The notes beneath the pieces were generated by a model that was not told where the DNA came from, did not search any database, and worked only from the letters and a program-made list of their open reading frames with translations. A stretch of DNA of 64,000 nt. Source: Candidatus Methylospira mobilis. Its GTDB lineage: Bacteria > Pseudomonadota > Gammaproteobacteria > Methylococcales > Methylococcaceae. This document shows positions 28,041 through 46,300 of the stretch, one piece after another. Positions within the stretch are counted from its first letter, which is position 1. The number at the start of each line of letters is the position of its first letter. The DNA lies in assembly GCF_009498235.1 (NCBI RefSeq), contig NZ_CP044205.1:2605389-2669388 (forward strand). The letters are read 5' to 3'. The position numbers were made by a program, and so were the translations under genes.

Positions 28041-28100
28041 ACGCTACCCGACAAGGAACAAATTTATTCAATCGCGAGACTATCCGAGCAAAACCTTTAG

Positions 28101-28462
28101 GGAAATACTGATTTAATCGCTGCCTATTTCCATATATTTATTATGGGCAATATATTGATTATGATATAATAATCAATATATTACACTGTAACGGTACCCG
28201 GCGCATGATAAAACAGACCACTCTCCTTGACGTGCTTCTCCAACAGAAATCGCGCATCACGCGGAGCGAGACTTTTTTGAACGCAATGGATCAGGTCGTT
28301 CCCTGGTCTGAACTGGTCGAGCTCATTCAACCGGTGTATCCCGCTTCCGGACGAGGCCGGGACGAACGGCAAGTGATTGTTTCCGTTCATGGGCATAGCG
28401 CCGCGAAAGCGGTTGGAGAGCCTTGTCTAACCATGAACCGAAACTGTTTATTCAGCGCTTCC
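28101..28462. mobile_element. Internally deleted IS5 derivative (MITE-like), 362 bp
   Basis: The left end GGAAATACTGATTTAATC and the inverted right end GGAAGCGCTGAATAAAC match the IS5 copy at 6006. The first 260 bases are near-identical to that IS; the rest is unrelated and resembles the interior of the MITE at 45109-45266 (a GTTCATGG ... CCATGAAC pair). The flanks are TTAG and CTAA, reverse complements rather than direct repeats, so the insertion history is not simple. The right end abuts the stop codon of a RiPP-like gene. Confidence 0.8.
28205..28363 (+). pseudogene. IS5 transposase N-terminal fragment
   Basis: About 53 codons match the start of the transposase at 6109, up to PVYPASGRGR. 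The frame then enters unrelated sequence and runs on to 28642, leaving the element and passing antisense through the small peptide gene. It is a non-functional fragment. Confidence 0.85.
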
Positions 28463-28636
28463 CTAATTGAGAAATACACCAGGTGGCAAGGGGACTTGTT
28501 TTCCAGTTTTCACGCAGTACGCCCTCCCATCATCCAGAATTCGGACACCACCCACTATGTTATCCAAATTCTCTTCAGACAACTCTGTCGAGTTTTCCTG
28601 AATTATTTCTTTCTGTTCCGATTGTTCTTCGCTCAT
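28463..28636 (-). CDS. Short-leader double-glycine RiPP-like precursor, 57 aa
   Basis: ATG 28636 starts a 57-residue peptide, MSEEQSEQKEIIQENSTE, then LSEENLDNIVGG, which is the same leader end as in the NHLP precursors (ELSDEELDxVVGG). The 27-residue core is VRILDDGRAYCVKTGKQVPL then PPGVFLN, with one Cys and a KxGKQVPLPPG stretch. The leader is only 30 residues, so this is not an NHLP paralogue, yet it has the same promoter type (28722-28755) and shares a 5' leader motif with NHLP genes h and l. The stop codon lies in the 4-bp flank of the IS5 derivative, so the original core may have been longer. The likely exporter is the NHLM system 3-8 kb upstream. No maturase is adjacent. Confidence 0.75.
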   Translation of the reverse strand: MSEEQSEQKEIIQENSTELSEENLDNIVGGVRILDDGRAYCVKTGKQVPLPPGVFLN

Positions 28637-28721
28637 AAATAACTCCGTTATCGATTCACTTAATGGCGCGGTTCGATTTTTAATTCGTCCTGCCCGGTTT
28701 GAACCGCATCAGCTGGACAGG

Positions 28722-28755
28722 CATAATCTGAGTAACCGGGCGCGAGAAAGAGTTC
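28722..28755 (-). promoter_or_regulatory. ECF-type promoter of the short-leader precursor
   Basis: On the minus strand GAAC (28755-28752), 16 bases, then TTACTCAGATTAT. The same arrangement precedes NHLP genes g, h, j and l. The distance from TTACT to the ATG is about 95 nt. The -35 half lies in a perfect 7-bp inverted repeat GCGAGAA-CTCT-TTCTCGC. Confidence 0.65.
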
Positions 28756-28798
28756 TCGCCTTGCTTAAAGCAGCTTTGCCGTCATTCCTCGCTTTTAT

Positions 28799-30489: not shown

Positions 30490-30870
30490 TTACGTTTTAC
30501 GGGGCACGCCCGGAACAGGCGGGTCGGCGGCTTGCAGCTTCTCTCCGGCGGCGGCAACCCACTCGAGCTCATCGTCATTGAGATCTCTCCCGGAAAGATT
30601 TCCCGGTCCTGACGGAGCATTTTGCAGGCCGAGCTTAATAAGCACACTTTGGGTAAAATCGACACCGGGCTCGATAACCTCCCTACCGGACCAGGCGTTA
30701 AGCATTTTCGCATCGGCCTGAATTCCTTCAATTAATTTCCGGCAGTCCTCACACTCGGCAAAATGTGTCTGAAATGTTTCCTCGGAAAATCCCGTGTCCT
30801 GGGAATCAGGCTCGTCCATACGGATGATCCAGGCGCTAATGATCTGTTCACAGGCCGGATTGTTATGCAT
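30490..30870 (-). CDS. Zinc-finger anti-sigma factor
   Basis: ATG 30870 (MHNNPACEQIISAWIIRMDE) overlaps the end of the ECF sigma gene by 8 bases. A HxxxCxxC zinc-binding motif reads THFAECEDCRKLIEG, as in cytoplasmic anti-sigma factors of the zf-HC2 type. No membrane segment is seen, so signalling may be cytoplasmic. The C-terminus reads GRDLNDDELEWVAAAGEKLQ, which resembles the ELSDEELDxVVGG leader end of the local precursors but with AAG for GG; this could be chance or a recognition mimic. Confidence 0.78.
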   Translation of the reverse strand: MHNNPACEQIISAWIIRMDEPDSQDTGFSEETFQTHFAECEDCRKLIEGIQADAKMLNAWSGREVIEPGVDFTQSVLIKLGLQNAPSGPGNLSGRDLNDDELEWVAAAGEKLQAADPPVPGVPRKT

Positions 30871-31447
30871 AAGCCAACCCCCGGTATTCAGATAAAGTTG
30901 CACGCAACTCCCGGCGCGCCCGATTCATTCGGCTTTTGAGCGTACCCATCGGTATGTCCAGGATAACTGCCGCCGTAGCGTAATCGTAACCCTCCAGAGC
31001 CACCAGCACCAGCGGCGCGCGCAGTTCATCCGGCAATGCCTGCACGGCGCGCTGTATCGCGCGCAAACGGTCATCTTGCGCAATCTGAACCGAAGGACAG
31101 TCTGTGTATCGCCCTGTTTCCATTTCATCGAGCTCATCATGCCGCAAAAATGCAAAGCGCCGTTCAGGCGAGCGGTTCATATGGTTGCGCGCCAGATTCG
31201 CGGCTATGCCCAGCAACCAGGTCGAAAAAAGCGCTTCGCCGCGAAACTCGGGCAAGCTGCGATAGGCTTGTAAAAATGTTTCCTGCGCCAGCTCGTAAGC
31301 GTCCTCACGATGTCCGACCAGGCGCAGCAGGAAACGATAAACGCGGCCCTGATGCCGGGAAACCAGTTCCGGAAAGCTCTGCATCAGCTCATCGCTCGAA
31401 TGCAACAGGACGACAGGCTCAACATGCAAATCAGGCTCAATAGTCAT
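30863..31447 (-). CDS. ECF-type RNA polymerase sigma factor
   Basis: The 194-residue protein has region 2 (FLLRLVGHREDAYELAQETF and FSTWLLGIAANLARNHMN) and region 4 (VQALPDELRAPLVLVALEGY then AAVILDIPMGTLKSRMNRAR). It lies 28 bases after the exporter gene and overlaps the anti-sigma gene, so all are probably one operon. Five precursor genes in the window have a shared GAAC-N16/17-TTACT promoter, a spacing suited to an ECF factor. I infer that this protein reads it. Confidence 0.9.
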   Translation of the reverse strand: MTIEPDLHVEPVVLLHSSDELMQSFPELVSRHQGRVYRFLLRLVGHREDAYELAQETFLQAYRSLPEFRGEALFSTWLLGIAANLARNHMNRSPERRFAFLRHDELDEMETGRYTDCPSVQIAQDDRLRAIQRAVQALPDELRAPLVLVALEGYDYATAAVILDIPMGTLKSRMNRARRELRATLSEYRGLAYA

Positions 31448-31475: not shown

Positions 31476-34361
31476 TCACGCCAGTTGCCGCTTGGCTAGT
31501 TCGGCAAAACGCCCATTCCGGTTCATCAATTCTTCGTAGCGGCCCATTTCCACTATTTTTCCGCTCTCCATCATGATAATGCGATCCGCATGGCGTATGG
31601 TGGAAAGACGGTGGGCCACAACCACGCGTGTCGCATTGAGACGCTCGATACTTTCGCTGACCCGTTGCTGGGTGCGGTTATCCAACGCGCTGGTCGCTTC
31701 ATCGAAAAACAGAATGCGAGGTCTGGAAACCAGCGCCCGCGCAATCATCAGGCGTTGGCGCTGCCCTCCCGATAAGGTGCCGGCGCCTTCATCAACCACC
31801 GTGTGCAAACCCATCGGCATCGCTTTTAAATCCTCCTCCATGCCCGCCATGCGCGCCGCCTCCATGGCATCCTCGTAGCTCAGAATTGCTGAACCGACGA
31901 TATTGGTAAAAATATCTCCCGGCATCAAGCGTCCGTGCTGCAGCACCACACCGATTTGCTTACGAATCGAGACGATATCCAAGCCGGCGATATCCTGGTT
32001 GTCGTAATACACCGAACCGGATTCCGGCTTTTCAAAACCCAGCAACAAACGCAGCAAGGTCGACTTACCACAACCGGAGGGCCCTACCAGTGCGACAAAC
32101 TCGCCGGGGGCGATATTTAGACTGAACTGATCGAGAACCGGCGCCAACTTGCTGTCGTAGCGAAAAGTCACCGCCGATAACTCTATCGCCCCGGAAAGCT
32201 CGCCTGCCTCCGGCTTAAGCAAATCCACTTCCGGGCTGGTTTGCAGCAATGGCTTCATGCGCTCATACAACGGAATGACATTCAATACCGCAATCAACGC
32301 CTCGCCCATGCCGATACCCGCTGTCAAAAAGTGGGTAAATGCAGTTTCGAAGCTGATAAAATTACCGGTATCAACTTTAATTGAGCCAAATGCCATCATG
32401 CCAAACAAGCTCATTGATGCAACCACCGGCAGGAACGAATCGAAAATCGACAGGCCTATCATCAAACGATGCGCACGGTAGGAATGCATATTCTGCTCGC
32501 TAAAACGAGAAGCCCAACGGGCGAAAGCGTGGCGTTCTCCGGCGGCAACCCTGAGCTTGGCAATACCGTTGAGTATCTGAAAGACTTCGCCGGATAAATC
32601 GCCGGCTATCCTGGTCAATTCACGTTCATGACGCAAACACTGCAAATTGATGACTATTGTCACCGCAACGGCAACCACGGTAATCAGCAAAGCGACCAGG
32701 GCCAAGTTTAAACTAACAAAAAACAGATAAAGAAAACTGAAGATAGAAAACAAGCCGCTCATCAGCACATGCAATACGGTGCCTGTCAGCGACTGTAAAA
32801 TACTGTCCAGGCCGAAAGCGCGCGTGGCCAGATCGCCTGAAGTGTACTCGCGAAAAAAATTCACCGGCAAGCGTAATAAATGATCGATGATAGCCGCATT
32901 GGCGGAAATTTCCATATGCGCTTCAATACGCTGCAAAGCAATCGCGCTGGTCAAGCCAAAACTCGCGGAACTGATCGCTGCAATCAATAGGATGCTGCTG
33001 AGCTGAACCAGTTGACTATGTTCAGCCTCTGGGATGACCGTATTAATCAGCATGCCGGTCATAATCGGCGTCAGCAGCCCAAGCAGCGCGCTGATCACAC
33101 CCAGAGACGCGACCACCCCCCAATCATATCCATTGTTTTTCAAACCGAACAGCAGCAATCCTCGCAAGGTGATCGGCCCCTCGGGAAACGTCCGGAAGAA
33201 CATGAAAGCCGTATCGACCAACCGCTCGGCAACGCGCTGATTAAGCCGCAACTCAGTGCCGTTTGCCGGGTCAAGCACGCGATATCCGCCATGAGTAAGC
33301 GGTAAAATGGCCACCGGCCGGCCATCCGCCTTCCAGAATCCCAGCAAAGGCCCCACATCCTCGCCCCACCAGTCTTTCCCCATCAGCGATATTTGCCGAT
33401 AATTGGCTCCCGAAGCGCGCGCGATCCTGGCGATCAAGCCGGATGACGCTGTTTCCATGTACGCGGATTGCGGAGGATGTTTAGCCTTGATACCGGTTGC
33501 AGCAAGCACCTCCGATATTGTCGAGAAAACCGGATCGGTTTCCATCGCGTCGGCTGCGGCTTCGAATTGGCGGCCCGGTTGCAATACCGCCGCCAAACCG
33601 GCGATCGCGCGCGCAAAAATACCATCGCCATCCTGTGCGCGTTGCAGTTGACGCGCATGTTCCGCAAGCCGTTCCTGTTGCTGCTCTTCAGCGATCACTT
33701 GCATGACACAGGCATAAAATAATGCAAGCGATTTATCCAATTCGGCATTGGGTAGCTCTGCTGTGTTCCAGGTATCGAGTTTCAGCGCCGAAAGCGCTGA
33801 CAGCCATACCGTTGACGTCAAGGGATAACAGCCATCGCCGACCATCGGGATTCGGCCCAGCCATTCGGCCTCGCCTTGTATCGCACGAACCCAGACGACG
33901 GATTGCGCCGACGCATAGGCGGTGCCGCCCGAACTCAGACTGAAACCGGAACCGGCAGTGACAATCCGGTTTTCGCGCGGACGCGAGCGGTGGGATAAAC
34001 CGTTGCCAAGCGTTTGCACCCAGCCCGACGACCAACCCCGCCAGAGTACATACTGTTCAACGTCCTGCTGCAAGTGCCGGCAGGCATCCTCGTCGAGATA
34101 GCGGCAGCAGCTACCCGGAAGAGGCTGCGCTATCAGCGCAAAACCGGCATTGCTCGTCAGTGAAGGCAGTCCCATGATGACGCCATCTACGGAAACGCGC
34201 CGCAGATGCTGACGGGCTCCCCAGCCGCCATCGGCCAGCAGCGGCACCACATGGATATCGACCGCTCCCGCGGTTACCAGCCAAACCCGCTCCGGCCCGT
34301 GCAGCAACCAGGGTTTATTACCTGAGAGTACCAGGTATTCGCCAATTTCTGGAATCGCCAC
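31476..34361 (-). CDS. NHLP bacteriocin export ABC transporter, permease/ATPase subunit (second NHLM-type exporter)
   Basis: The 961-residue protein has a long N-terminal soluble domain of about 400 residues, six membrane helices (around 415-690) and an ATPase domain. The Walker A is GPSGCGKST (from 760), the signature LSGGQRQRLMIARALV and the Walker B ILFFDEATSALD. It carries no C39 peptidase domain. Two tandem exporters, one with and one without peptidase, next to an HlyD protein is the hallmark of NHLM systems. Its ATG overlaps the stop of the peptidase-exporter gene. Confidence 0.9.
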   Translation of the reverse strand: MAIPEIGEYLVLSGNKPWLLHGPERVWLVTAGAVDIHVVPLLADGGWGARQHLRRVSVDGVIMGLPSLTSNAGFALIAQPLPGSCCRYLDEDACRHLQQDVEQYVLWRGWSSGWVQTLGNGLSHRSRPRENRIVTAGSGFSLSSGGTAYASAQSVVWVRAIQGEAEWLGRIPMVGDGCYPLTSTVWLSALSALKLDTWNTAELPNAELDKSLALFYACVMQVIAEEQQQERLAEHARQLQRAQDGDGIFARAIAGLAAVLQPGRQFEAAADAMETDPVFSTISEVLAATGIKAKHPPQSAYMETASSGLIARIARASGANYRQISLMGKDWWGEDVGPLLGFWKADGRPVAILPLTHGGYRVLDPANGTELRLNQRVAERLVDTAFMFFRTFPEGPITLRGLLLFGLKNNGYDWGVVASLGVISALLGLLTPIMTGMLINTVIPEAEHSQLVQLSSILLIAAISSASFGLTSAIALQRIEAHMEISANAAIIDHLLRLPVNFFREYTSGDLATRAFGLDSILQSLTGTVLHVLMSGLFSIFSFLYLFFVSLNLALVALLITVVAVAVTIVINLQCLRHERELTRIAGDLSGEVFQILNGIAKLRVAAGERHAFARWASRFSEQNMHSYRAHRLMIGLSIFDSFLPVVASMSLFGMMAFGSIKVDTGNFISFETAFTHFLTAGIGMGEALIAVLNVIPLYERMKPLLQTSPEVDLLKPEAGELSGAIELSAVTFRYDSKLAPVLDQFSLNIAPGEFVALVGPSGCGKSTLLRLLLGFEKPESGSVYYDNQDIAGLDIVSIRKQIGVVLQHGRLMPGDIFTNIVGSAILSYEDAMEAARMAGMEEDLKAMPMGLHTVVDEGAGTLSGGQRQRLMIARALVSRPRILFFDEATSALDNRTQQRVSESIERLNATRVVVAHRLSTIRHADRIIMMESGKIVEMGRYEELMNRNGRFAELAKRQLA

Positions 34362-36514
34362 TATTCCATCCTAATCAAGTTGGCATACAGGCCGCCCAGC
34401 GCCAGCAGTTCATCATGAGTGCCGCGCTGCACCACTTTGCCATGCTCAAGCACTATAATTTCATCGGCATCGCGTATGGTGCTCAAGCGGTGCGCCACGA
34501 TCAGGCATGCGCAGCCCCGGCGCCGAATGCAGTCGTCTATCTGCTTTTCAGTCAGCGGGTCCAGCGCCGAAGTCGCCTCATCCATCACCAGCAAGCTTGG
34601 GGCATGAACCAGGGCGCGGGCAATTTCCAGGCGTTGCGACTGCCCTCCGCTGAAATTGGAGCCGCGCTCCGTCACCGGGCCGTCATAGCCTCCGGGCCTG
34701 TTTCCGATGACATCGTGTATCTGCGCATCCTTGGCAGCCTGCAGCATTTGACCTTCGGGTACGCTGCCATCCCACAAACACAGGTTTTCTCGTATCGTAC
34801 CTTCGAAAAGAACAATATCCTGATCGACATGCGCCAGCGAGCTGACCAGAACCTGACGAGGTATCGCCGAACGCTGAAGCCCGTCGAACAGGATTTCGCC
34901 GCCCCATGGCTTGTTCAGACCAACAATCAGCTTGGCTATGGTCGATTTGCCGCTACCTGAGCCGCCCACCAGCGCGATACGCTGTCCCGGTTTCAGCGTC
35001 AGATTCAAATTTTCGATCAGGGGAGGATCGAGCGGGCTGTAACCGAAGCTGACGTTGCACAGTTCCAGCCGCCCGGTCAGGCGCACAAACCCGGCGTCTA
35101 CGGATTCAACATCCTGAGTCAACGGATCGACCGGATAATGCAGCACATCGTCCAACCGGGTCAGATCGGCTTCTATTATCTGTACTTTTTGCACCAGCCC
35201 CAACAGATGACCAACCGGCCCCATGAAACTGGACATCAAGGATTGAAAAGCCACCAGCGTGCCGACCGTCATCTCGCCCTGCATCACCTGATAGCCGCCA
35301 TATCCCAATACTGCGGTATGGCTGATTGCATCCAATAAGGTGGGAAGCGTACCCAGTGTAAGCGAATACAGTCCGACTTTTTGCGAGGTATTAAGCACCT
35401 TGGCCATATAACCGGACCAGCGCATGAAAAAATCCGATTCCCTGCCGCTCGCCTTCAAGGTTTCGATCATCTGTATGGCGCCCATGGTAGCGGCCATCAG
35501 CTTGGCATGGTCCTGCTGCATGCGCAGATTGCCGTCGCGGCCTACGCGGTTCAGCTTGCTCAACACCAGCAGGTTGATAATCGCAATGATAATACTCATG
35601 ACGGCCAAAACCACGTCATACTGAAACATCAGCGCCGCAAAAAAAACCAGCATGATCAGGTTAACGGTATTGGTAGCCAAATCGCCGGAAAGCAATTCGG
35701 CAACGGTATCGTTCGATCCCACGCGTTGCGCTATATCACCGGCGTAACGTTGCTGGAAAAACTCGACCGGCAAGCGCAGCACATGCCAGAAAAAGCTGCC
35801 GGACATGCTGACGGCAAGCCGTTTGTCCAATCTCAACAGATAATTCTGCTGCAATGCCGTCAACGCTGCGCGCACCACCGCAGTACATGCCATGCCCAGC
35901 AACAAGGGACGCACCCAATCCTGATGCCCGCCGATGAGATAATCATCGATAAACACTTTGGTAAACGTAGGCATCAGTAAACCGGGAATTACCAGCCCCA
36001 GTGTCGCAATCACTACGAAAAGGAGCGCGCCGTGCAAGCCCGCCAAACGCGGCAACAGCCGCTGCGCCAGATTTTTTTGCCCGCCGCCTCGCTGAAACTC
36101 CCCGGTTGGCGCAAAGCTCAGCACGATACCTGTATAGGCCTTGTCGAACTCGGCGCCCGTCACCACGCGCGGCCCGCTGGCAGGATCGTTTATATAAACA
36201 CGACCCTTTTTACCAAAACCCTCCAGTACCAGGAAATGATTAAAGTTCCAGAACAGGATGACCGGAAGCGGCATCTTATTCAGTTCGCCGATACTGTGAC
36301 GATGCCCCTTGGCCTCGAGACCGAAAGTACGGGCGGCCTTGACGATATTACTGGCCTTGCTGCCGTCGCGCGATACGCCGCAAGCGATCCGCAGTTCTTC
36401 GAGCGGCACGCGGCGTCCGAAATAGGCCAGTACGATGGCCAGCGCAGCCGCTCCGCATTCCACCGCTTCCATCTGCAATATGGTGGGCGTCCGCGCCCGT
36501 TTGATCGCCTTCAT
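34361..36514 (-). CDS. NHLP bacteriocin export ABC transporter with C39 leader peptidase
   Basis: This peptidase-exporter would cut leaders after the double glycine and pump the core out. Counting from the upstream in-frame ATG at 36532, the C39 domain has Cys26 (MEAVECGAAALAIVLAYFGR), His99 (FWNFNHFLVLEGF) and Asp116 (INDPASGPR). After the membrane domain, Walker A GGSGSGKST starts near 523, the signature is FSGGQSQRLEIARAL and the Walker B LLVMDEATSALD. I prefer ATG 36514 (MKAIKRARTPTILQ), 4 bases after the HlyD stop. Confidence 0.93.
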   Translation of the reverse strand: MKAIKRARTPTILQMEAVECGAAALAIVLAYFGRRVPLEELRIACGVSRDGSKASNIVKAARTFGLEAKGHRHSIGELNKMPLPVILFWNFNHFLVLEGFGKKGRVYINDPASGPRVVTGAEFDKAYTGIVLSFAPTGEFQRGGGQKNLAQRLLPRLAGLHGALLFVVIATLGLVIPGLLMPTFTKVFIDDYLIGGHQDWVRPLLLGMACTAVVRAALTALQQNYLLRLDKRLAVSMSGSFFWHVLRLPVEFFQQRYAGDIAQRVGSNDTVAELLSGDLATNTVNLIMLVFFAALMFQYDVVLAVMSIIIAIINLLVLSKLNRVGRDGNLRMQQDHAKLMAATMGAIQMIETLKASGRESDFFMRWSGYMAKVLNTSQKVGLYSLTLGTLPTLLDAISHTAVLGYGGYQVMQGEMTVGTLVAFQSLMSSFMGPVGHLLGLVQKVQIIEADLTRLDDVLHYPVDPLTQDVESVDAGFVRLTGRLELCNVSFGYSPLDPPLIENLNLTLKPGQRIALVGGSGSGKSTIAKLIVGLNKPWGGEILFDGLQRSAIPRQVLVSSLAHVDQDIVLFEGTIRENLCLWDGSVPEGQMLQAAKDAQIHDVIGNRPGGYDGPVTERGSNFSGGQSQRLEIARALVHAPSLLVMDEATSALDPLTEKQIDDCIRRRGCACLIVAHRLSTIRDADEIIVLEHGKVVQRGTHDELLALGGLYANLIRME

Positions 36515-36518
36515 GCCG

Positions 36519-37781
36519 TTATTCCAGGCCAAACAGGTGTTTGAGCCAGGGCATCACCAGCGTAATGGGAGGACGTTCCCTCAGTTTTATTTGCGCGGTG
36601 CACAGGGTGCCTCCGCTCACTTCCACTTTGGAGCCGGCGCGCGACGACCACTGCAAACCGCTGCGGGTGGACGGATTTTTCAATAGGCTTACCCTGACCG
36701 CAACAGGGGGACCTTGTTTGGAAAGCAGGCTGTCCACCACCCGATCGCGATGCAATATGGCCAGCATGCCTTCGCGAGTCGCCGGAAATAGCGAAACCGA
36801 TTCCACGCGTCCAACGATAAAGCCGAATTCCTGACGCTTGGCGGTATCGGGCGAAAGCTGCACCTCCATACCTACCCGCACGTTTTTCGCTTCCCCGAGC
36901 GGCGGGAGATAAATCTCTGCTTCCAGTTCGCTGGTTTCGTCTTCGACGTCGATTATCGGCGACATCGCGTTGACGGCGCTGCCTTCCGTTGCCTTGATTT
37001 CAATCACACGCCCTTCGTATGGGCTAACCACGGTCGAAGTCAGCGTGAGATTCGCATCGTTTTGACGCAATTGACCGCGCGCGTTCTGCACACGTTCATG
37101 AATACCGATCAGTTGCTGTCTGGAGTTGGTCTCGGCGACATTGTGTTCATGCGCCAATTGTTTGAGTTGGGCATCGTAATTCTGAATGTCCTGCCGCGCC
37201 TGGAACAATGCCTGGCGCGAATTTTCATAGCTTTGCCGGGTAATGATGCCGTCCCGCAACAACGCTTCCTGACCTTGCAGAGTCAACTGCAACGACTGCA
37301 CCAACTCGCCCTTGGCTTCCTTACCCAGAGCAATAGCCTTTTCCCGCTGCTTGAAATGCTGACGGCTCAATTCGAGATTGTGTTCCACCGCCTGCGCCAT
37401 GACGGATTCTTCCTGCTCCAGCTCGGCCAGATTGACTTTGGCCGCATCACGTTGCGAACTCGCTACCGGCTGGGCAATGCTGGCGATGATCTGGCCTTCC
37501 ATCAGACGATCGCCGGGTTTAAGCGGCTCGAGGTGAGAAATTACTCCCGCTCCCTGCGCCACAACCACATGAACGCCGCCGCGCTTGAGCAATATCCCCT
37601 GTCCGGCGATGCGGGTAGGTATGGAGCCGAACACGCTCCAGAACAGCGTGGCGGCCAGCGCCAGCATCAAACCGCTCAGCGCAATCCAGCCTCGGCGGCT
37701 GGTGACCTGCATCAATTGGTCAAGCTGTTCCGGCGCGCTCAACTGTTGCAAAGCGCTCTTGCGGAATAGGGAATCTTTCAT
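36519..37781 (-). CDS. NHLM-type secretion adaptor (HlyD family)
   Basis: The periplasmic adaptor would bridge the ABC exporters and the TolC-like channel. One membrane segment (GLMLALAATLFWSVFGSIPT), a biotinyl-lipoyl-like half (GAGVISHLEPLKPGDRLMEG), a long coiled coil (about 120-240) and the matching second half with SPYEGRVIEIKATEGSAVNA are present. The length of 420 residues is normal. It overlaps the upstream TolC-like gene by 4 bases. Confidence 0.92.
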   Translation of the reverse strand: MKDSLFRKSALQQLSAPEQLDQLMQVTSRRGWIALSGLMLALAATLFWSVFGSIPTRIAGQGILLKRGGVHVVVAQGAGVISHLEPLKPGDRLMEGQIIASIAQPVASSQRDAAKVNLAELEQEESVMAQAVEHNLELSRQHFKQREKAIALGKEAKGELVQSLQLTLQGQEALLRDGIITRQSYENSRQALFQARQDIQNYDAQLKQLAHEHNVAETNSRQQLIGIHERVQNARGQLRQNDANLTLTSTVVSPYEGRVIEIKATEGSAVNAMSPIIDVEDETSELEAEIYLPPLGEAKNVRVGMEVQLSPDTAKRQEFGFIVGRVESVSLFPATREGMLAILHRDRVVDSLLSKQGPPVAVRVSLLKNPSTRSGLQWSSRAGSKVEVSGGTLCTAQIKLRERPPITLVMPWLKHLFGLE

Positions 37782-39409
37782 GGCATTCTCATATCGGAGT
37801 CCGGATGCAACGGCACGGTGGTCAATCGCTCCAGATTGATATCGCGGGACTCGTCGCCCGGCGCAAACAGCGACGCCGTGGCGAAGCGATAGCGCACCAC
37901 GGCATTGGCCAGATTCATTGCCGCCTGGGTTTTAGCCAGTTGCGCCTGGGTCAGGTTCTGTTCGACCATCATCACGTTGATGACGGTGGACATGCCCGCA
38001 AGCTGTTTCTTTTTCTCGCTCTGGAACGCCTGTAAGCGGCTATCGACAGCGGTCGAGGCAAACCGCAAGCTATTCATGCTCTGCTGCAAGCCGCTGGTCG
38101 CCACCTGCACCGACGAAGCAATGGAGCGCGCCAGATTTCCCTGAAGAATCTGCGCTTCGGTCATCGACGAAGCGGTTTGGCGGAATTGGCCTTTCGCTTT
38201 TTCATTGGCAAACGGAAACTCGTAACTGAGAGTTGCGCCTCCGGTATATCCCTGGATGTTTTGGCCGTAGGCTGTCAACAGATTCATCGCAACCACCGAA
38301 TTGGACAATCCCGTGTAGCCAATATCCAGACTTAAATTCACCTTGGGCTTGAGCTCGCTCTCGGCGCCTCCCAGCAAGGCCTGATAATACTGCATGTGTT
38401 GCTCGGCGGCGAGCAGATCGCTGCGATGGCCAAACGCATACGCTGTCATTCTGTTCAGGTTGGAGGTTGCATACGCCACTGCATCCGTATGAGGAACAGG
38501 AAAACTGTCCGAAGGCAAAGGGATCGCAGCCAAATGGTCCGCGGGCACCCCCATCACCATGCCCAGCGTCTGACGAGCTGAGACCAGTCCCTGTTCAGCT
38601 TGCGCGCGATCCGCTTCCGCGCCCGCCAGTGACGCCTGATAGTTGTTGAGATCCGAACGCGGGATTTGGTCGGCATCTGCCAGACGAAAGCCATCCTCCA
38701 GCAATTTACGGTTTCTTTCCTCAGCCGCCCGCCAAATTTCGAGCTGTTGAGCAACCGCCACATAGGCCCAGTAGGCAGACACCGTTTTCTGCAGTTCATC
38801 AGCCACCGTCTGCCATAATTCGTAACGCGTCTTGTCGAACCCGTGCTCCGCCGCAATTTCCTGCGCAGCGGTCGCCTTGACCCCTAAACCGCGCAGCAAA
38901 GGTATGACTATATTCAGATTAATAGTCGCGGAGGTATTTGGAGCCGTATTATTAAAATCCTGGGTAGTAAATCGGGCTGTCGATACGGTCGGCGTCACCT
39001 GTATGCCGGAGCGGAATAATTGGCTCAGACCGAGTTTATAAAACATGTTATCGAACTCGGTCACTTGCAAACCGCGAGCGGTGGCTGCATATGTATTGCC
39101 ATACATGATGGAGGACTTATTATGAGCAACCCCACCGGAGGCTTGCGATATGGTATTAAACTGACCGTGCGCGCTGGTCAGGCTGCCGGCCGCCGCTTCC
39201 ATGCGCTGCTGCGCCGCAAGAATAATCGGGCTGGCTTCCAGGGTTACGCGCACCGCCTGCAGAAGGCCGATTTTTTCCATTGCGCCGTTATTCGGCGACA
39301 CTATTTCCCCCTGCTCCACAGGAACAAGCGCTCCATATCCGGCATCGATTAAACAGCCCCATAAGAGCAAGCTGACAAGCGCGACGTACAATTTATGTAC
39401 TGGCTTCAT
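37778..39409 (-). CDS. TolC-family outer-membrane channel protein
   Basis: The 543-residue outer-membrane efflux protein has a signal sequence ending LLLWGC (Cys19), which could be a lipobox. Two OEP repeats follow: VRVTLEASPIILAAQQRMEA and later LLAAEQHMQYYQALLGGAES, with TQAQLAKTQAAMNLANAVVR near the end. First gene of the exporter operon TolC, HlyD, ABC1, ABC2, sigma, anti-sigma, all with overlapping or very short junctions. The tentative upstream signal GAAC-N16-CGTATACAGAG (39491-39460) is only a weak match to the precursor promoters. Confidence 0.92.
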   Translation of the reverse strand: MKPVHKLYVALVSLLLWGCLIDAGYGALVPVEQGEIVSPNNGAMEKIGLLQAVRVTLEASPIILAAQQRMEAAAGSLTSAHGQFNTISQASGGVAHNKSSIMYGNTYAATARGLQVTEFDNMFYKLGLSQLFRSGIQVTPTVSTARFTTQDFNNTAPNTSATINLNIVIPLLRGLGVKATAAQEIAAEHGFDKTRYELWQTVADELQKTVSAYWAYVAVAQQLEIWRAAEERNRKLLEDGFRLADADQIPRSDLNNYQASLAGAEADRAQAEQGLVSARQTLGMVMGVPADHLAAIPLPSDSFPVPHTDAVAYATSNLNRMTAYAFGHRSDLLAAEQHMQYYQALLGGAESELKPKVNLSLDIGYTGLSNSVVAMNLLTAYGQNIQGYTGGATLSYEFPFANEKAKGQFRQTASSMTEAQILQGNLARSIASSVQVATSGLQQSMNSLRFASTAVDSRLQAFQSEKKKQLAGMSTVINVMMVEQNLTQAQLAKTQAAMNLANAVVRYRFATASLFAPGDESRDINLERLTTVPLHPDSDMRMP

Positions 39410-40069: not shown

Positions 40070-40441
40070 TCAAGACTTTATGCCTACGTTTCGGAACCCC
40101 CCGTCACCGAAGCGAAAAAGAGGGCGTTTCAGGCACCCTTCTATCACTGCTTTTCCTAAGTTATTAAAATCAACGCCTCCAACAACTTGATCCAGCATTT
40201 CATCAGAAAGTTCGTTTGGCTTGGCTGGAATCACCAAATGGAAAACGCTTTCGGTATTTTCTACCGCTTTAATGTTAACCCCTTCAGTAACATCTATATT
40301 TTCCTCTTGCAGTGTTTTTACTGTATTAGCTAACAGCCTGATTTTGAAATCCTCATCTGCCCAGCATTTTGCTATTATTTCCTGTATTTTTTCTGCTTGT
40401 TGAATTGCATTATTTTCAAGCGCTTCCGAATCGGAATTCAT
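40070..40441 (-). CDS. NHLP-family bacteriocin precursor (a)
   Basis: The 123-residue precursor has the nitrile-hydratase-like leader: IQEIIAKCWADEDFKIRLLA, EGVNIKAVENTESVFHLVIP, and the cleavage end NELSDEMLDQVVGG. The 34-residue core has VIEGCLKRPLFRFGDGGFRN and contains the only Cys among the readable NHLP cores in the window. It is the precursor nearest the exporter genes, same strand. Confidence 0.93.
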   Translation of the reverse strand: MNSDSEALENNAIQQAEKIQEIIAKCWADEDFKIRLLANTVKTLQEENIDVTEGVNIKAVENTESVFHLVIPAKPNELSDEMLDQVVGGVDFNNLGKAVIEGCLKRPLFRFGDGGFRNVGIKS

Positions 40442-40586
40442 CTGAATGCTCCTATACTTTTATCTAAAAATTGACCATTACCCCATCAATTTTTCAATCT
40501 ATGCTCAAGAACGCGCCGTATTTCTGATTTAATGAGGCAACACATAACGTCGACCTGTGATTGTTGACAGAGTGATGTTTTGATCA

Positions 40587-41036
40587 TCAAAATTTATTCC
40601 ACACCTTCCCCTGGAGCCAACGTCCCAATTTAGCTCTTGGCGAATTGTGCTTTTCCTCGTCGGTGGGATGTCGCCAACCACCCGGCGTAGCCCTGTAATT
40701 CGTATCAGTATGCTGGTCATGAGCTGCATATGCCAGCCCCGCCACTGCAAATATGCCGCCTCGTCCCCCTACAATCTCCTCCAACTCCTCATTTGAAATC
40801 TCGGTATTTCTTTCAGGAATGACCAAATGAAACAGGCTATTTGTATTTTCTACCGCTTTTACAGTAACGCCTTCTGGAGTATCTACGCCTTCCTCTTTTA
40901 AGGTTTTCATTGTATCGACCAGCAGCTTTTCCTTGAACGCCTCGTCAGCCCAGCATTTCAATATTAAACGGGACAATTGTTCTTCATTTTCATCAGGCAG
41001 CACATCGCCGTCAACACGTTCGATCTCGTTATTCAT
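40587..41036 (-). CDS. NHLP-family bacteriocin precursor (b)
   Basis: From ATG 41036 (MNNEIERVDG) the 149-residue precursor has LILKCWADEAFKEKLLVDTM, VKAVENTNSLFHLVIPE and EISNEELEEIVGG. The 58-residue core begins RGGIFAVAGLAYAAHDQHTD and has a polar, His- and Trp-containing tail (RWLQGKVWNKF), unlike the Gly-rich cores c, e and f. It has no Cys. The gap to gene c is about 80 bases. Confidence 0.92.
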   Translation of the reverse strand: MNNEIERVDGDVLPDENEEQLSRLILKCWADEAFKEKLLVDTMKTLKEEGVDTPEGVTVKAVENTNSLFHLVIPERNTEISNEELEEIVGGRGGIFAVAGLAYAAHDQHTDTNYRATPGGWRHPTDEEKHNSPRAKLGRWLQGKVWNKF

Positions 41037-41115
41037 AATATACACCATACTACGCCAAATAAAAAATTGAAGTTTAGCCGCCTTTCCATTTCACTTAAGC
41101 GCGCCAAATCCCACC

Positions 41116-41559
41116 CTACTTTTTCGATAAGTAGGCTCCACCTCCAACCAACCCACCTCCAAGCCCTAATGCGCCTCCAATCTTTACCGCATTTTTTAAT
41201 ATATTTGCACTTTTCATAGCTTGAGCTCGTTGCGTTACACGAGCAAGGGAAAAAATCCCTCTTTTCATCATCCAGGCGTACTTAAGTCTTCCCCCAACGA
41301 TATCGTCAAGTTCTTCATCTGATATATCGGTAACATTTTCAGGAATAACCAAATAATGCAAACTATCTGTATTTTCCAGGACCTTGACATTTATATCGTC
41401 AGAAATATCTACACCTTCTTCCTTCAATGTTTCCTTCGCATTAGCAAATAATTTAGCCTTGAACGCTTCGTCCGCCCAACACTTCAATATCAGACGATGA
41501 AATTGCTGACCATGTTCGTCAAGCTGCGCTTTATCTTCACTCTTGAGTTGATTAATCAT
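41116..41559 (-). CDS. NHLP-family bacteriocin precursor (c), glycine-zipper core
   Basis: From ATG 41559 (MINQLKSEDK), 147 residues. The leader has LILKCWADEAFKAKLFANAK and ends DISDEELDDIVGG. The 57-residue core is cationic at the front (RLKYAWMMKRGIFSLARVTQ) and ends in IGGALGLGGGLVGGGAYLSK, a membrane-active glycine-zipper type sequence. There is no Cys. Such a core suits a pore-forming unmodified bacteriocin. Confidence 0.93.
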   Translation of the reverse strand: MINQLKSEDKAQLDEHGQQFHRLILKCWADEAFKAKLFANAKETLKEEGVDISDDINVKVLENTDSLHYLVIPENVTDISDEELDDIVGGRLKYAWMMKRGIFSLARVTQRAQAMKSANILKNAVKIGGALGLGGGLVGGGAYLSKK

Positions 41560-41738
41560 AATATACCTCGGCAATGCTTTTATAAAAAAGCAGCGATAAT
41601 GCTCCTAAAATATTACCACTTAAAGCATCACTTACAAATAACCATCGCCCTCCATTTATTCAATTGTTCTCATTAGATGTTTTAGCGCGCATCATGCCGG
41701 AAAGACCATACCAGAATATCCAAAGATATTTCAGTTAC

Positions 41739-41783
41739 TTATTTCTTGAAATTGGACAACACACCGTTAAAACAAATCCTCAT
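41739..41783 (-). CDS. Mini ORF, 14 codons
   Basis: MRICFNGVLSNFKK follows a strong AAGAAAGGAG site just downstream of precursor d. It may be a translated leader peptide or the remnant of a lost precursor start. There is no homology evidence. Confidence 0.2.
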   Translation of the reverse strand: MRICFNGVLSNFKK

Positions 41784-41823
41784 CTGAACTCCTTTCTTGA
41801 TGATTTGCCTTGTATAACACCTG

Positions 41824-42162
41824 CTATCGCCCCTGGACCAAAAAACCCGATAATAACTGCGTTCCTTTAGCTGCGTGCCTGATCAATGCCCATCGTCCTT
41901 TACCACCGACAACTGCTTCTAGCTCATCATCCGACAGCGCATATGGCTTTCCTTGAATTATCAAGTGGCGTTGACTATCGATATCCGCCAGCGCTTGAGC
42001 ATCGAGTCCTTCCCGCAGCGCAAACCTAGAATCCTTTATCGTTTTCATTGTATTCGGCAGCAGCTTTTTCTTGAACGATTCGTCTACCCAACACTTGGCA
42101 ATCAGCCTGAAGTACAAATCCTCATTTTCATCTACTTGATATTCTGCCGGCTCAGCAACCAT
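41824..42162 (-). CDS. NHLP-family bacteriocin precursor (d), short core
   Basis: The 112-residue precursor has YFRLIAKCWVDESFKKKLLP and ends ALSDDELEAVVGG. The middle of the leader is divergent (DSQRHLIIQGKPY). The 25-residue core, KGRWALIRHAAKGTQLLSGF then LVQGR, is a cationic amphipathic peptide with no Cys. Confidence 0.9.
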   Translation of the reverse strand: MVAEPAEYQVDENEDLYFRLIAKCWVDESFKKKLLPNTMKTIKDSRFALREGLDAQALADIDSQRHLIIQGKPYALSDDELEAVVGGKGRWALIRHAAKGTQLLSGFLVQGR

Positions 42163-42272
42163 AAATACTTCTCTTTTTATCAGACCTTTCTTGCATCGAA
42201 AAACTAGGTAATAATTTAATTACAAAGAAATAATAGACGATAAGAATTTCATATCTGCGGAGGGTATCTTCG

Positions 42273-42689
42273 TTACTTTTTTCTCAAGAAATGAGAAACG
42301 CCGGCATATCCTGCTAGAGCACTCAGTGCGCCGCCGACAGCGTAAGCAACCGCTCTCGCATTAGCAGCTTTTTGTGCCATGATGACGACAGTAGAGGCGG
42401 CTCTTATTCTGCCGGCACCTCCGACAATGTCATCCAACTCTTCTTCGGACAACTCTGCAGGTTTACAGGGAATTACCAAATGCAGTAAATTTTCAGTATC
42501 TTCAACAACCTTAACAGAAACTCCTGCTTGAAGCTCAACACCTTCATTCCGCAAAGTTTCTTCAGGTTTAGCCATTAACTCGGTTTTAAAATCAGAGTTT
42601 TGCCAGCATTTTGCGATAACTTGCTGCATTTTTTGCTCTTGTTGCATTACCGCATCATCTTCTGTTGATATTTCCTGTTCGATATTCAC
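42273..42689 (-). CDS. NHLP-family bacteriocin precursor (e), glycine-zipper core
   Basis: I choose the GTG at 42689 (NIEQEISTEDD), because AGGGGCAG precedes it just as AAGGGCAG precedes gene f; the longer frame to 42719 would need a TTG. The leader has QVIAKCWQNSDFKTELMAKP and PAELSEEELDDIVGG. The 47-residue core has AYAVGGALSALAGYAGVSHF and ends LRKK. There is no Cys. The start is 44 bases below the stop of f, its close paralogue, so they are probably cotranscribed and recently duplicated. Confidence 0.92.
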   Translation of the reverse strand: MNIEQEISTEDDAVMQQEQKMQQVIAKCWQNSDFKTELMAKPEETLRNEGVELQAGVSVKVVEDTENLLHLVIPCKPAELSEEELDDIVGGAGRIRAASTVVIMAQKAANARAVAYAVGGALSALAGYAGVSHFLRKK

Positions 42690-42732
42690 TTTACTGCCCC
42701 TGTGATTGGCTTGTTTCAAACATTGAAAATAA

Positions 42733-43206
42733 TTATTTTTTCAATTTATTAAGACCCAAAGCAGCGCCTGCACCAAGGCCTAAACCGGTACTGACTGCTA
42801 TAATGCCCCCTGATATGGATTGGGCTGTTTTTGACAAGACTCTTATGGCCAACGCTGGATTACCATGCCTTCCAAGAACCATGGCTTTGGCTCCAGCACG
42901 ACTCAATCCTTTCATCATTACAACACCATAACTGCCTCCAACAATGTCATTCAAATCTTCTTCAGATAATTCTTCAGGCTTATAAGGAATTACCAAATGA
43001 AATAACTTTTCTGTATCTTCAACAACCATGACCGATACACCTTCTTGAGGCTCCAGCCCCTCTTTTCGCAAGGTTTCGGCAGGATTGGCCATCAGCTCGG
43101 CTTTAAAGTCAGGACTCCGCCAGCATTTTGCAATAATTTTCTGGAATTTTTGCTCTTCTTGTATTACAGCATCTTCTTCGTTTTGCACTTCAGATTCGTT
43201 ATTCAT
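42733..43206 (-). CDS. NHLP-family bacteriocin precursor (f), glycine-zipper core
   Basis: The 157-residue precursor has KIIAKCWRSPDFKAELMANP, VMVVEDTEKLFHLVIPYKP and EELSEEDLNDIVGG. The 66-residue core is the longest of the set, with ISGGIIAVSTGLGLGAGAAL and a LNKLKK tail. There is no Cys. A Gly/Ala-rich hydrophobic stretch followed by lysines is shared with c and e. Confidence 0.93.
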   Translation of the reverse strand: MNNESEVQNEEDAVIQEEQKFQKIIAKCWRSPDFKAELMANPAETLRKEGLEPQEGVSVMVVEDTEKLFHLVIPYKPEELSEEDLNDIVGGSYGVVMMKGLSRAGAKAMVLGRHGNPALAIRVLSKTAQSISGGIIAVSTGLGLGAGAALGLNKLKK

Positions 43207-43310
43207 TTTTCTGCCCTTATGTTAGGTGGGTAATTGAAATATTTCTGATTGAATAAATTAAGCGAAGCCAGTCCCTACGTTGTCTGTCGCCAAAAAACTT
43301 CTATGGTTAT

Positions 43311-43412
43311 CATGGTGGTGAAAAAAACCAAAAATCCACTATATCCTGTGTCTCGGCAACGAAGAAATAGACAATGGGTGACATGGAAATCGAGTTTTTC
43401 ATCACCCTGCCA
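43311..43412. repeat. Imperfect inverted-repeat element upstream of precursor f
   Basis: GGTGGTGAAAAA at the left and TTCATCACCCTGCC at the right face each other about 100 bases apart. The ends and length resemble the element at 44011-44110 upstream of gene g. The remaining bases of the gap 43207-43510 show no gene. Confidence 0.4.
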
Positions 43413-43510
43413 GGGAACCTCTGATCAAGCTCATAGCGAAAATATTATTTACCCTATATTCAATATTTTTAAATTTTAAAATCGGCAAAAATGGCACTTA
43501 ATCAGACTCC

Positions 43511-43936
43511 CTAGGTATTTCGTTTTATCCAGTTAACGTCGCGATCTAATTCTGCTGCAATATGATCAGTTGGAAAGCTGCTCGGCTCGTTCATCATCTG
43601 GCCAGTGTGTTTAATATAGGCAACTGCTATACGAGGTCCACGTGAAGCGCGCCGAATAGTTTTCCATATTCCGCCTACAACGCCATCCAACTCCTGATCG
43701 GACAATTCCGCTGGTTTTTCAGGAATCACCAAATGATACATACTGCGTGTGTTTTCCACAGCCCTGATGGTCACTCCTTCTTGAACCTCAAAGCCTTCTT
43801 CTTTTAAAATTTCTGACGTATTCGTCAACAACTTGGCCTTGTAAGCCGCATCCGCCCAGCACTTGGCGATTAGACGAGCGAGTTGCTCGTCGTGTTCATC
43901 ATATTCCGGGATTTGTTCTGCTGCTACTTCGTTCAT
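43511..43936 (-). CDS. NHLP-family bacteriocin precursor (g)
   Basis: From ATG 43936 (MNEVAAEQIPEYDEHDEQ) the precursor has 141 residues; the upstream part of the longer frame is leader DNA. The leader has ARLIAKCWADAAYKAKLLTN and PAELSDQELDGVVGG. The 52-residue core begins IWKTIRRASRGPRIAVAYIK and has an acidic polar tail, with no Cys. The promoter at 44116-44149 lies 189 nt up, because a 100-bp inverted-repeat element sits in its 5' leader. Confidence 0.93.
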   Translation of the reverse strand: MNEVAAEQIPEYDEHDEQLARLIAKCWADAAYKAKLLTNTSEILKEEGFEVQEGVTIRAVENTRSMYHLVIPEKPAELSDQELDGVVGGIWKTIRRASRGPRIAVAYIKHTGQMMNEPSSFPTDHIAAELDRDVNWIKRNT

Positions 43937-44010
43937 TTCGTTACTCCATTTCAACAAAAAGTAATCGCATGTTTCTAATCCACTCTGTGCAAAGCACATG
44001 TCAATGCGCA

Positions 44011-44110
44011 GCAGGGTAGTGAAAAAATCGATTTTAACACCACCAACGGTGCCTTTACCTAATACAGAAACGCAGGATATGGTATGTTTTTGGATTCTTC
44101 ACCACCCTGC
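44011..44110. repeat. 100-bp inverted-repeat element in the 5' leader of precursor g
   Basis: GCAGGGTAGTGAA (44011-44023) and TTCACCACCCTGC (44098-44110) are inverted copies with one mismatch. Subtracting the element gives a leader of about 89 nt, the same as in the other precursor genes, so it looks like an insertion (second MITE family). No target duplication is clear. Confidence 0.55.
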
Positions 44111-44115
44111 CAAGT

Positions 44116-44149
44116 TATAATCCAAGTAACACGCGCTGCCAAAACTTTC
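44116..44149 (-). promoter_or_regulatory. ECF-type promoter of precursor g
   Basis: On the minus strand GAAA (44149-44146, one mismatch to GAAC), 16 bases, then TTACTTGGATTAT. It matches the promoters of h, j, l and the 28.6-kb peptide. Nothing gene-like was found in 44150-44404. Confidence 0.55.
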
Positions 44150-44404
44150 TCCTTTTTAGCTTCACGCGCGCGCCCTTCGTACTCTGATGCGCCGGCGTTG
44201 GTCAAATTCTAACTCAACAAGTATATGTTTCGAGTATGACGGCTTCATGACTTAAGCAATTTATAACTGACCGGGCGTAAAGGAAATCGGAATTATCTTA
44301 CCGTCACCAAGAACGTTGCCTACTAATGGACCAGGCCGCATTAGTAAGACTCGCTTCAAATTCTTTTGCTGCATTCTGTAACTGAGCATCTCTTTGAAAA
44401 TTAA

Positions 44405-44701
44405 TTATTTTACGGCAGTCGTTCCTCTAAAATTATCCCCAGACCCTTGTCGTGAATACGTAAATAACTCTCTCTTGCCCTTACCCAGATCCCGTACATT
44501 GCTATGCTTACCACCCCCAACCACTAGGGAAGCGCTGATTTAATCGGTTTTTGCGCGGACTTTCATGGCAACAGATTGATTTTACGTGTCAGTTATCAGC
44601 AATTTATGGATTAATCAGTGTTTCCCTGGATCAAGCTCAGCATCGCTTAATTCATTTACATCTGTGAAAGATATATCATTTTCTGTACTTATACCGGTCA
44701 T
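44405..44701 (-). pseudogene. Short-leader double-glycine RiPP-like precursor interrupted by a MITE
   Basis: ATG 44701 begins MTGISTENDISFTDV then NELSDAELD, and the frame then enters the MITE at 44625 and stops. Removing the MITE (44528-44625) and one 4-bp flank restores an exact reading frame of 64 codons: the leader end becomes ELSDAELDPVVGGG (or LVVGGG, depending on which flank copy is kept), followed by a basic polar core KHSNVRDLGKGKRELFTYSR and QGSGDNFRGTTAVK. There is no Cys. The leader is short, like the 28463-28636 gene. The frame after the stop still looks coding in another phase (DAQLQNAAKEFEASLTNAAW), so the original may have been longer. Confidence 0.75.
44528..44625. mobile_element. 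98-bp IS5-derived MITE
   Basis: Left end GGAAGCGCTGATTTAATC, inverted right end GGAAACACTGATTAATCC, flanks CTAG (44524-44527) and CTGG (44626-44629), which fit a 4-bp YTAR-type target duplication with one later change. There is no coding capacity. The ends match the resident IS5, which could mobilise it. Confidence 0.85.
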
Positions 44702-44709
44702 TGAAAAAA

Positions 44710-44725
44710 ATTTACTATAGTAAAT
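44710..44725. promoter_or_regulatory. 16-bp perfect palindrome upstream of the interrupted precursor
   Basis: ATTTACTATAGTAAAT lies 9 bases above the ATG at 44701 and below the decayed gene h. It could be an operator or simply an AT-rich palindrome. No ribosome-binding site separates it from the ATG. Confidence 0.3.
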
Positions 44726-44774
44726 AGTTGGCGGCTTTTACAAAACCTCATCGCCTCCTCTGCGTTTTCGACTG

Positions 44775-45017
44775 TTAATCCGAACAATTCTGCGGCCTCT
44801 CTAGGATTACCAGATGAAACGCGCTATCGGTATTCGCCACCGCTTTGACTGTAACGCCCTCTTGTAGCTCAAACCCTTCCGCTTTCAGCATTTCTGCAGC
44901 ATTGGCCAACAGTTTTTCATTGGAGCCATCCACTACCAAACGGCTGGGAATCGACCGGGTAAATTGCTCTTCATGTTCGTCAATTTGTTGCTTTGCTTGT
45001 TCTGCTTCTGCGTTCAT
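44775..45017 (-). pseudogene. Decayed NHLP precursor (h)
   Basis: ATG 45017 (MNAEAEQAKQQIDEHEEQF) starts a recognisable leader, but the invariant AKCWAD block has become SRLVVDGSN. The end ERPQNCSD then stops where others have ERPAELSDEELD. A one-base shift restores AEL and then runs on without a double glycine. The 5' leader keeps the shared ACCGCGCC motif, and the promoter lies beyond a MITE insertion. The gene cannot give a normal product. Confidence 0.85.
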
Positions 45018-45108
45018 AAACTAGTTCCTGTCATACAGTAACAGTAAAGGCGCGGTTTGACCCGTATAGACAATCTGTCACGCCAAAACCATATTTGAGA
45101 GACCTACA

Positions 45109-45266
45109 GGTAAGCGCTGATTAAATTCTTCGACACGCTCAGAGCCTGTTCTGAGCGTAGTCGTAAGTGAATGACAAGCGATTGTTTTCGTTCATGGTGA
45201 GCCCTTCGACTACGCTCAGGAAAACCTTGTCGAACCATGAACGAAAACGCTTTATTCACCGTTTCC
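45109..45266. mobile_element. 158-bp IS5-type MITE in the 5' leader of precursor h
   Basis: The left end GGTAAGCGCTGATTAAATTC and inverted right end GGAAACGGTGAATAAAGC match the IS5 family. The inside carries an inverted pair (TTTTCGTTCATGG ... CCATGAACGAAAA) also found in the 28101-28462 element. It separates gene h from its promoter at 45266-45299. Confidence 0.75.
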
Positions 45267-45299
45267 ATAGTCTGAGTACCCGCGCGTTGCAAAAAGTTC
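45266..45299 (-). promoter_or_regulatory. ECF-type promoter of precursor h, displaced by a MITE
   Basis: On the minus strand GAAC (45299-45296), 16 bases, then GTACTCAGACTAT. Without the MITE the distance to the h start is about 96 nt, as for the other precursor genes. Confidence 0.6.
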
Positions 45300-45307
45300 T
45301 CGACTGG

Positions 45308-45526
45308 CCTCATTTTTTAAATTAAACAGTCGTTCGGTATTTTCGACTACGGTAACTGTTACTGCTTCAGGAACGTCGAAGCCTTCTCCTCCTGTAAGGT
45401 TTCGGCCGTATTCGCCAGCAGCTTGGCTTTGAATGCTTCATCCGCCCAGCACTTAGCTATCAGGCGAGCAAATTGTTGTTCATGTTCATCGTATTCCGCG
45501 TGTTGTACTGTCGATACTTCGCTCAT
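45308..45526 (-). pseudogene. Frameshifted, 3'-truncated NHLP precursor (i)
   Basis: ATG 45526 encodes MSEVSTVQHAEYDEHEQQFA then RLIAKCWADEAFKAKLLANT, a normal NHLP leader. A frameshift (extra bases after TTACAGGAGGAG) ends the frame at KASTFLKQ. In the corrected phase VTVTVVENTERLFNL is readable, and the sequence then merges into the promoter region of gene h without a GG site or core. The core has been deleted. Confidence 0.8.
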
Positions 45527-45726
45527 TGGTTTCTCCGTGAATTAAAGAAAAACTACGGCCCGCCTTGAAAACCCTTAACCGCCTATTGGATCGCTCCCGT
45601 CGGATTCATGAGCATAAAGTCGGTCAGGAATCGTTTCGACAGTACGTACACTATTGACGACTCCGGTCGCTCCCTGACGGGTACAAAAATTAGCCCAACG
45701 CCGCGCACATAGATGAGCCATCGCGA

Positions 45727-46182: not shown

Positions 46183-46265
46183 TTGCTACTCCGTGAGTTA
46201 AAGAAAAAAGGTGAATCGCTCTCGTTTTCAACCTGCTCCGTTCAAAGCGCATCTCAATAGGATAG

Positions 46266-46300
46266 GTCTAATCTAGTAACACGCGTTAACAAAAAAGTTC
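46266..46300 (-). promoter_or_regulatory. ECF-type promoter of precursor j
   Basis: On the minus strand GAAC (46300-46297), 17 bases, then TTACTAGATTAGA. One of five similar promoters. Confidence 0.65.

Follow-up and report, generated by a model that had tools for sequence, protein, structure and literature searches.

A short-leader double-glycine peptide in an apparent ECF-controlled NHLM regulon of Candidatus Methylospira mobilis

The gene sG1 of Candidatus Methylospira mobilis encodes a 57-residue peptide. We read it, at a probability of roughly 0.7, as a double-glycine peptide with a short leader that belongs to an ECF-controlled NHLM regulon and depends on the local C39 transporter for cleavage and export. 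It lies in a stretch of 64,000 nucleotides (contig NZ_CP044205.1, positions 2,605,389 to 2,669,388), here called the window, to which all coordinates refer unless a locus is named. The reading builds on the open reading frame and its cleavage motif, a paralogue, a 5' region shared with other genes, the distribution of a promoter-like site, and the neighboring exporter and ECF genes, all of which are observed.

Results

The sG1 precursor and its NHLP-like leader end

The original prediction gave a 57-residue open reading frame without naming its strand; the frame is present and lies on the minus strand (Table 1). It starts with ATG, ends with TAG and is preceded by GGAG 6 nt upstream of the start codon. 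The leader ends in VGG and is followed by a 27-residue core with a single Cys. As had been claimed, the leader is short, with 30 residues compared to about 80-90 in NHLP precursors.

Table 1 Features of the sG1 locus and related features elsewhere.
Feature	Position	Strand	Basis
sG1, 57-aa short-leader double-glycine precursor	28463..28636	-	motif score; codon pattern vs sG2
sG1 leader, 30 codons, end ELSEENLDNIVGG	28547..28636	-	translation; motif score
sG1 predicted core, 27 codons, VRILDDGRAYCVKTGKQVPLPPGVFLN	28466..28546	-	translation; cleavage inferred
5' region with homologues before NHLP genes and sG2	28637..28765	-	alignment; Infernal model
Promoter-like site GCGAGAAC-N15-GTTACTCA, 92 nt before sG1 ATG	28729..28759	-	pattern match
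Matching promoter-like site before NHLP gene at 47344	47428..47460	-	pattern match
IS5-type element remnant	28100..28463		sequence; weak IS5 transposase match (E 0.018)
Zinc-type anti-sigma candidate (HFAECEDC), 126 aa, tail DLNDDELEWVAAAGEK	30490..30870	-	motif and position only
ECF sigma factor	30863..31447	-	Pfam Sigma70_r2 and r4_2; TIGR02937 68.7 bits
NHLM ABC2 permease/ATPase	31476..34361	-	TIGR03797 871.8 bits
NHLM ABC1 with C39 peptidase	34361..36532	-	TIGR03796 1080.6 bits
NHLM HlyD-type adaptor	36519..37781	-	TIGR03794 286.8 bits
TolC-type outer membrane channel	37778..39409	-	operon position; phmmer to same-place genes in L085, L145, L158
Array of NHLP precursors and remnants, same system	40070..47344	-	ORFs; TIGR03793
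sG3, 94 aa, 31-residue leader ending TALSDDELDSIVGG	L087 7165-7449		promoter-like site about 100 nt upstream
zf-HC2-Nif11 anti-sigma, VGG site, beside ECF and NHLM exporter	L085 11937-12491; L145 9533-10069; L158 6984-7487

The leader end was scored with a motif matrix built from the leader ends of 12 NHLP precursors in the same genome. sG1 reached 29.8 bits, inside the leave-one-out range of the NHLP precursors (25.7-36.9 bits), and its end is NHLP-like as predicted. The best open reading frame per window in 20 first-order Markov simulations of the window scored between 4.4 and 13.1 bits, and the frames scoring above sG1 (9 of the 659 of 30-250 aa in the window) were NHLP precursors without exception. 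The leader shows L-12, L-7, a hydrophobic residue at -4 (I-4) and GG, the motif of C39-processed double-glycine leaders, and carries Asn at position -8, where Glu is usual. In the structure of LahT, a C39 domain from another bacterium, with a leader, Leu-12, Leu-7 and Val-4 are the contacts, positions -4, -7 and -12 filling the binding groove (PMC6363468); the corresponding residues of sG1 and its GG agree with these contacts. The same study describes a precursor lacking 10, 20 or 30 N-terminal residues as still a substrate of LahT C39, and a leader of 30 residues should therefore be enough in principle.

The NHLP model TIGR03793 (cut-off 50.9 bits) gave no match to sG1 at E values up to 1, while two NHLP open reading frames tested beside it scored 71.8 and 71.5 bits; sG1 is not among the 15 matches to this model in the genome. 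The original prediction was right on this account not to class sG1 as an NHLP precursor, and its statement that the core differs from NHLP cores holds as well. With TIGR01847, sG1 scored 14.1 bits, under the cut-off of 15.7. The best NCBIfam match was NF038167 (CTB family bacteriocin) at 18.5 bits with a cut-off of 32, which covers residues 10-31 and leaves the core uncovered. Every Pfam or NCBIfam family matched by sG1 scores under its curated cut-off.

sG1 resembles the TIGR01847 type in its leader of 20-30 residues, in the L-12/L-7/hydrophobic-4/GG pattern and in the cut by a C39 peptidase transporter predicted for it. What sets it apart from that type is the company of an NHLM exporter and an apparent ECF regulon that it has in common with NHLP precursors. 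With the latter it shares similar last 13 leader residues, a homologous 5' region, the genome and the apparent regulon; unlike them it has no nitrile-hydratase-like domain. In the accessible text of Haft et al. 2010 (PMC2887384), the average leader ends of the TIGR01847, N11P and NHLP types lie at residues 24, 70 and 83, respectively; this text describes a three-gene exporter and makes no use of the word sigma. That C39 loci can carry short unclassified precursors is already known from the list of Wang et al. 2011 (PMC3140520), in which 150 of the 290 cyanobacterial precursors (28-164 aa) fall outside the named families.

A paralogue in the same genome

The genome, a single contig of 4.70 Mb, contains one clear paralogue of sG1 (E 3.8e-4). 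This gene, sG2, encodes 68 aa with a 29-residue leader, adjoins an NHLP gene and a large synthetase-like open reading frame, and lies 1.6 Mb away. Both peptides are 55% identical over residues 1-33, and their cores align loosely; the suggestion that the N-terminal part of the sG1 leader is unique does not stand, as sG2 has it too. In the 32 aligned codons (leader and first three core codons), the two genes differ 12, 2 and 19 times at codon positions 1, 2 and 3, respectively. As most changes fall on the third position, this stretch looks translated and selected. The weakest match in the alignment search of the genome was sG3 (E 0.28).

sG1 is small and above cut-off in no family library, as would be expected of a chance open reading frame. 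Its motif score, its paralogue, the codon pattern and the 5' region described below largely refute this explanation, which we regard as highly improbable. Short double-glycine peptides are missed by annotation on account of their size.

Outside the genome, an 8-mer scan of the genome-contig collection found no homologue of sG1, nor did searches of 60 relatives at E up to 0.01, of plasmids (two records at E 6-7), of phages (13 records at E 5-7), of viral contigs and of the PDB (a single match at E 0.8). Alignment A1, searched against 310 further genomes of the order, likewise gave no homologue. Ten of them matched at E 0.003-0.1: six matches were inspected for forward open reading frames and held no short double-glycine precursor (one, L155, is the anti-sigma gene of G967 described below), and the remaining four fall inside open frames of 448-1136 aa. 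The homology search proposed in the original prediction thus yielded a paralogue within the genome and no sequence homologue beyond it. Absence of any homologue near NHLM exporters had been named as grounds for rejecting the peptide; sG1 comes through this test only in part, since sG2 does stand beside an NHLP gene, yet at 1.6 Mb from the exporter.

A 5' region and promoter-like site shared with NHLP genes

Homology among the 5' regions of sG1, sG2 and several NHLP genes extends from the promoter almost to the start codon. A sequence-only Infernal model (R2) was built from three NHLP 5' regions, leaving out sG1 and sG2, and used to search the 4.7 Mb genome. After its own members, the next matches were sG2 (E 3.7e-12) and sG1 (E 1.2e-5). 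The recovery of both left-out genes bears out the shared promoter and 5' region proposed earlier. An RNA structure in the 5' region was considered and rejected (RNAalifold -3.5 kcal/mol, double change in one of nine pairs).

The core site common to the 5' regions is GCGAGAAC-N15-GTTACTNA, or GAAC-N15-GTTAC in relaxed form. It looks like an ECF sigma promoter in sequence, its AAC core and spacing being what we take to be the ECF kind. Genome-wide, the pattern occurred at 10 sites with at most two mismatches, six of which were already known when it was written: those of sG1, sG2, two broken NHLP genes and a further NHLP gene, and one lying 300 nt upstream of a subtilase gene. Among the four new sites, one lies about 100 nt before sG3, one precedes an NHLP gene whose region was already a weak match of model R1, and two are unlinked to a double-glycine gene. 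Allowing up to three mismatches, the one threshold at which a reversed-pattern control was counted, gave 75 sites compared to 96 for the control. As 75 is not above the control, the looser sites are noise. sG1 has the promoter-like site and the 5' region found in other members of the apparent ECF regulon. The shared promoter offers a way to list products of the NHLM exporter anywhere in the genome and here added sG3.

The subtilase gene (L088 1982-5029, site at 1651) encodes 1015 aa, and by eye the N-terminal part of its product resembles a 1480-aa protein encoded at 47963-52405 of the window.

The export operon and its surroundings

An operon in the order tolC-hlyD-ABC1-ABC2-ECF-anti-sigma runs on the minus strand from 39409 to 30490. 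The genome encodes an exporter with a C39 domain, ABC1 (TIGR03796), in whose translation the Q/C, H and D segments were recognised by eye. A scan of the genome-contig collection with ABC1 gave three loci at 29-40% identity, which contributed nothing further. No Pfam or NCBIfam anti-sigma family matched the anti-sigma candidate. A scan for modification enzymes covered ten of the 55 window open reading frames with 150 aa or more. These ten included one 2OG-Fe(II) oxygenase (52888-53748) and no YcaO, LanM or radical SAM enzyme. No immunity gene for sG1 was recognised.

In the NHLP array, two broken open reading frames (44775-45017 and 45359-45526) stop ahead of any GG motif, and the NHLP gene at 47344 is broken into two frames, 47201-47344 and 46948-47229.

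sG1 itself sits 1.9 kb beyond the anti-sigma gene, amid IS remnants. The terminal base of an IS5-type remnant is the G of the sG1 stop codon TAG; TA flanks both ends of the remnant, and positions 44519-44546 resemble its end. Truncation of the core by this element appears unlikely: read by eye, the junction codon is TAG now and would have been a stop codon even without the insertion, which probably left the core at its full length. Between sG1 and the operon, a lipoprotein-like gene (28799-30472) is interrupted by an IS30 element (transposase 29197-30240).

These surroundings bear on the idea that sG1 is a relic of cassette shuffling, in which an NHLP gene and its 5' region were copied together and the coding part then either decayed or gave way to other sequence, leaving a transcribed sG1 that makes nothing useful. 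Homology over about 100-120 nt, beyond the promoter blocks, would fit such a history, as would the broken NHLP genes of the array (44775-45017, 45359-45526, 46948-47344) and the crowding of the locus with IS elements. However, the short leader is retained in the distant sG2, where the codon changes fall mostly on third positions, and the RBS-like sequence, the start codon and the GG motif of sG1 are intact. We consider a relic unlikely.

ECF-bearing NHLM loci in relatives

In a set of 201 genomes, the window ECF factor had its best matches other than itself in G109 (E 6e-40) and G931 (E 3e-39), the next following at 5e-32, and both genes adjoin an NHLM exporter. A third genome, G967, has a homologous ECF gene and the same operon order as the window. 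G109 and G931 belong to one genus and G967 to another. The pattern was relaxed to GAAC-N15-GTTAC after G109 had been seen and was fixed before G967. It occurs twice in 19.9 kb of G109 (before the anti-sigma gene and before a YcaO gene), once in 10.5 kb of G931 (before the anti-sigma gene) and three times in 9.1 kb of G967, again once before the anti-sigma gene, that is six times in 39.6 kb. No such site was found in the adjoining 16.1 kb of G109. The 21 NHLM loci where no homologous ECF gene was seen (phmmer at E up to 1e-5 within the stretch examined, some stretches ending at contig ends) had none either, in a total of 350,163 bp with 2.7 expected for uniform bases. Such an ECF gene was seen in two of the 23 loci found via TIGR03796, our own and that of G109. 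G931 and G967 entered the sample via their ECF and anti-sigma genes and therefore give no measure of how frequent ECF genes are at NHLM loci.

This distribution speaks to a second alternative, namely that sG1 is a real double-glycine peptide served by another C39 transporter or by sigma-70, its link to the NHLM operon being one of neighborhood only. A spacing like TTGGCA-17-TATAAC can be read by eye in some NHLP 5' regions, and the C39 assignment considers the NHLM ABC1 alone among the exporters of the genome. Yet a consensus scan of the minus strand upstream of sG1 found no such sigma-70-type pair, and GAAC-N15-GTTAC accompanies the ECF gene across genera and is absent from the NHLM loci in which none was seen, leaving this alternative very unlikely.

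Proposed route of sG1

For the preferred reading, in which sG1 belongs to the ECF-controlled NHLM regulon, we propose the following course. The ECF factor encoded at the end of the NHLM operon would start transcription of sG1 at GAAC-N15-GTTAC. The last 13 leader residues would then be bound by the C39 peptidase domain of ABC1, which would cut after VGG, and the core would exit via ABC1/ABC2, HlyD and TolC. Once outside, the core would probably serve without modification, either as a bacteriocin-like peptide or as a signal, beside the NHLP products of the regulon. With no immunity gene recognised and no YcaO, LanM or radical SAM enzyme in the scanned open reading frames, an unmodified core is the simplest guess. 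As far as searched, the promoter region tying short-leader and NHLP peptides together, the link to an NHLM-borne ECF factor and the leader-tagged anti-sigma described next are new.

An anti-sigma-type protein fused to a Nif11 leader

In G109, G931 and G967 alike, the gene following the ECF gene encodes a zf-HC2 domain and then a Nif11 domain, both above Pfam cut-offs. The fusions end in ELSD..LDAVVGG followed by 14-21 residues. In these three relatives, an anti-sigma-type protein encoded beside the exporter thus bears a leader and cleavage site of the bacteriocin type. Among the papers listed in the literature searches, judged by the beginnings of their abstracts, none dealt with a zf-HC2-Nif11 fusion or with an anti-sigma read by an exporter.

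The window anti-sigma candidate ends differently, in DLNDDELEWVAAAGEK, and the evidence for reading this tail as a reduced leader is weak. The tail scored 11.7 bits with the leader-end matrix, the next window open reading frame after the precursors, and this score was exceeded in one of the 20 simulated windows. When scored without the GG columns, 29 of 1615 open reading frames ranked higher, five of which have no GG. MAFFT placed the tail on a different part of Nif11, and hhalign gave a probability of 8% for the window anti-sigma against the three fused ones.

A tentative possibility is that the C39 transporter, or its precursor load, captures or cuts the VGG-tagged anti-sigma and thereby frees the ECF factor for expression of NHLP and short double-glycine peptides including sG1. 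The tag of the window anti-sigma would then be a reduced, uncut form, DLNDDELEWVAAA. FlgM provides an export-coupled switch of comparable logic; the one considered here would be made from a bacteriocin leader. If the anti-sigma were read by the exporter, this would explain how precursor synthesis is matched to export capacity.

Short-leader peptides at other NHLM loci

Short-leader double-glycine peptides of other sequence occur at no fewer than 3 of the 21 NHLM loci sampled outside the order, so an exporter with such neighbors is not unique to the window. In G581 (L124), G341 (L112) and G137 (L106), leaders of 17-51 residues lie beside NHLM ABC genes; they are likened to sG1 by the GG motif, and unlike in the window no ECF gene was seen at these loci. 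Two double-glycine peptides at L106 (6291-6455 and 6657-6797) have only 3-4 residues after GG. An open reading frame at the NHLM locus of G635 (L130 12547-13023) may hold a short-leader double-glycine peptide with an internal start (RLSDADLDGVQGG). Finally, a 309-aa open reading frame with ELSDDDLENVSGG adjoins an NHLM exporter at L126 (14486-15415).
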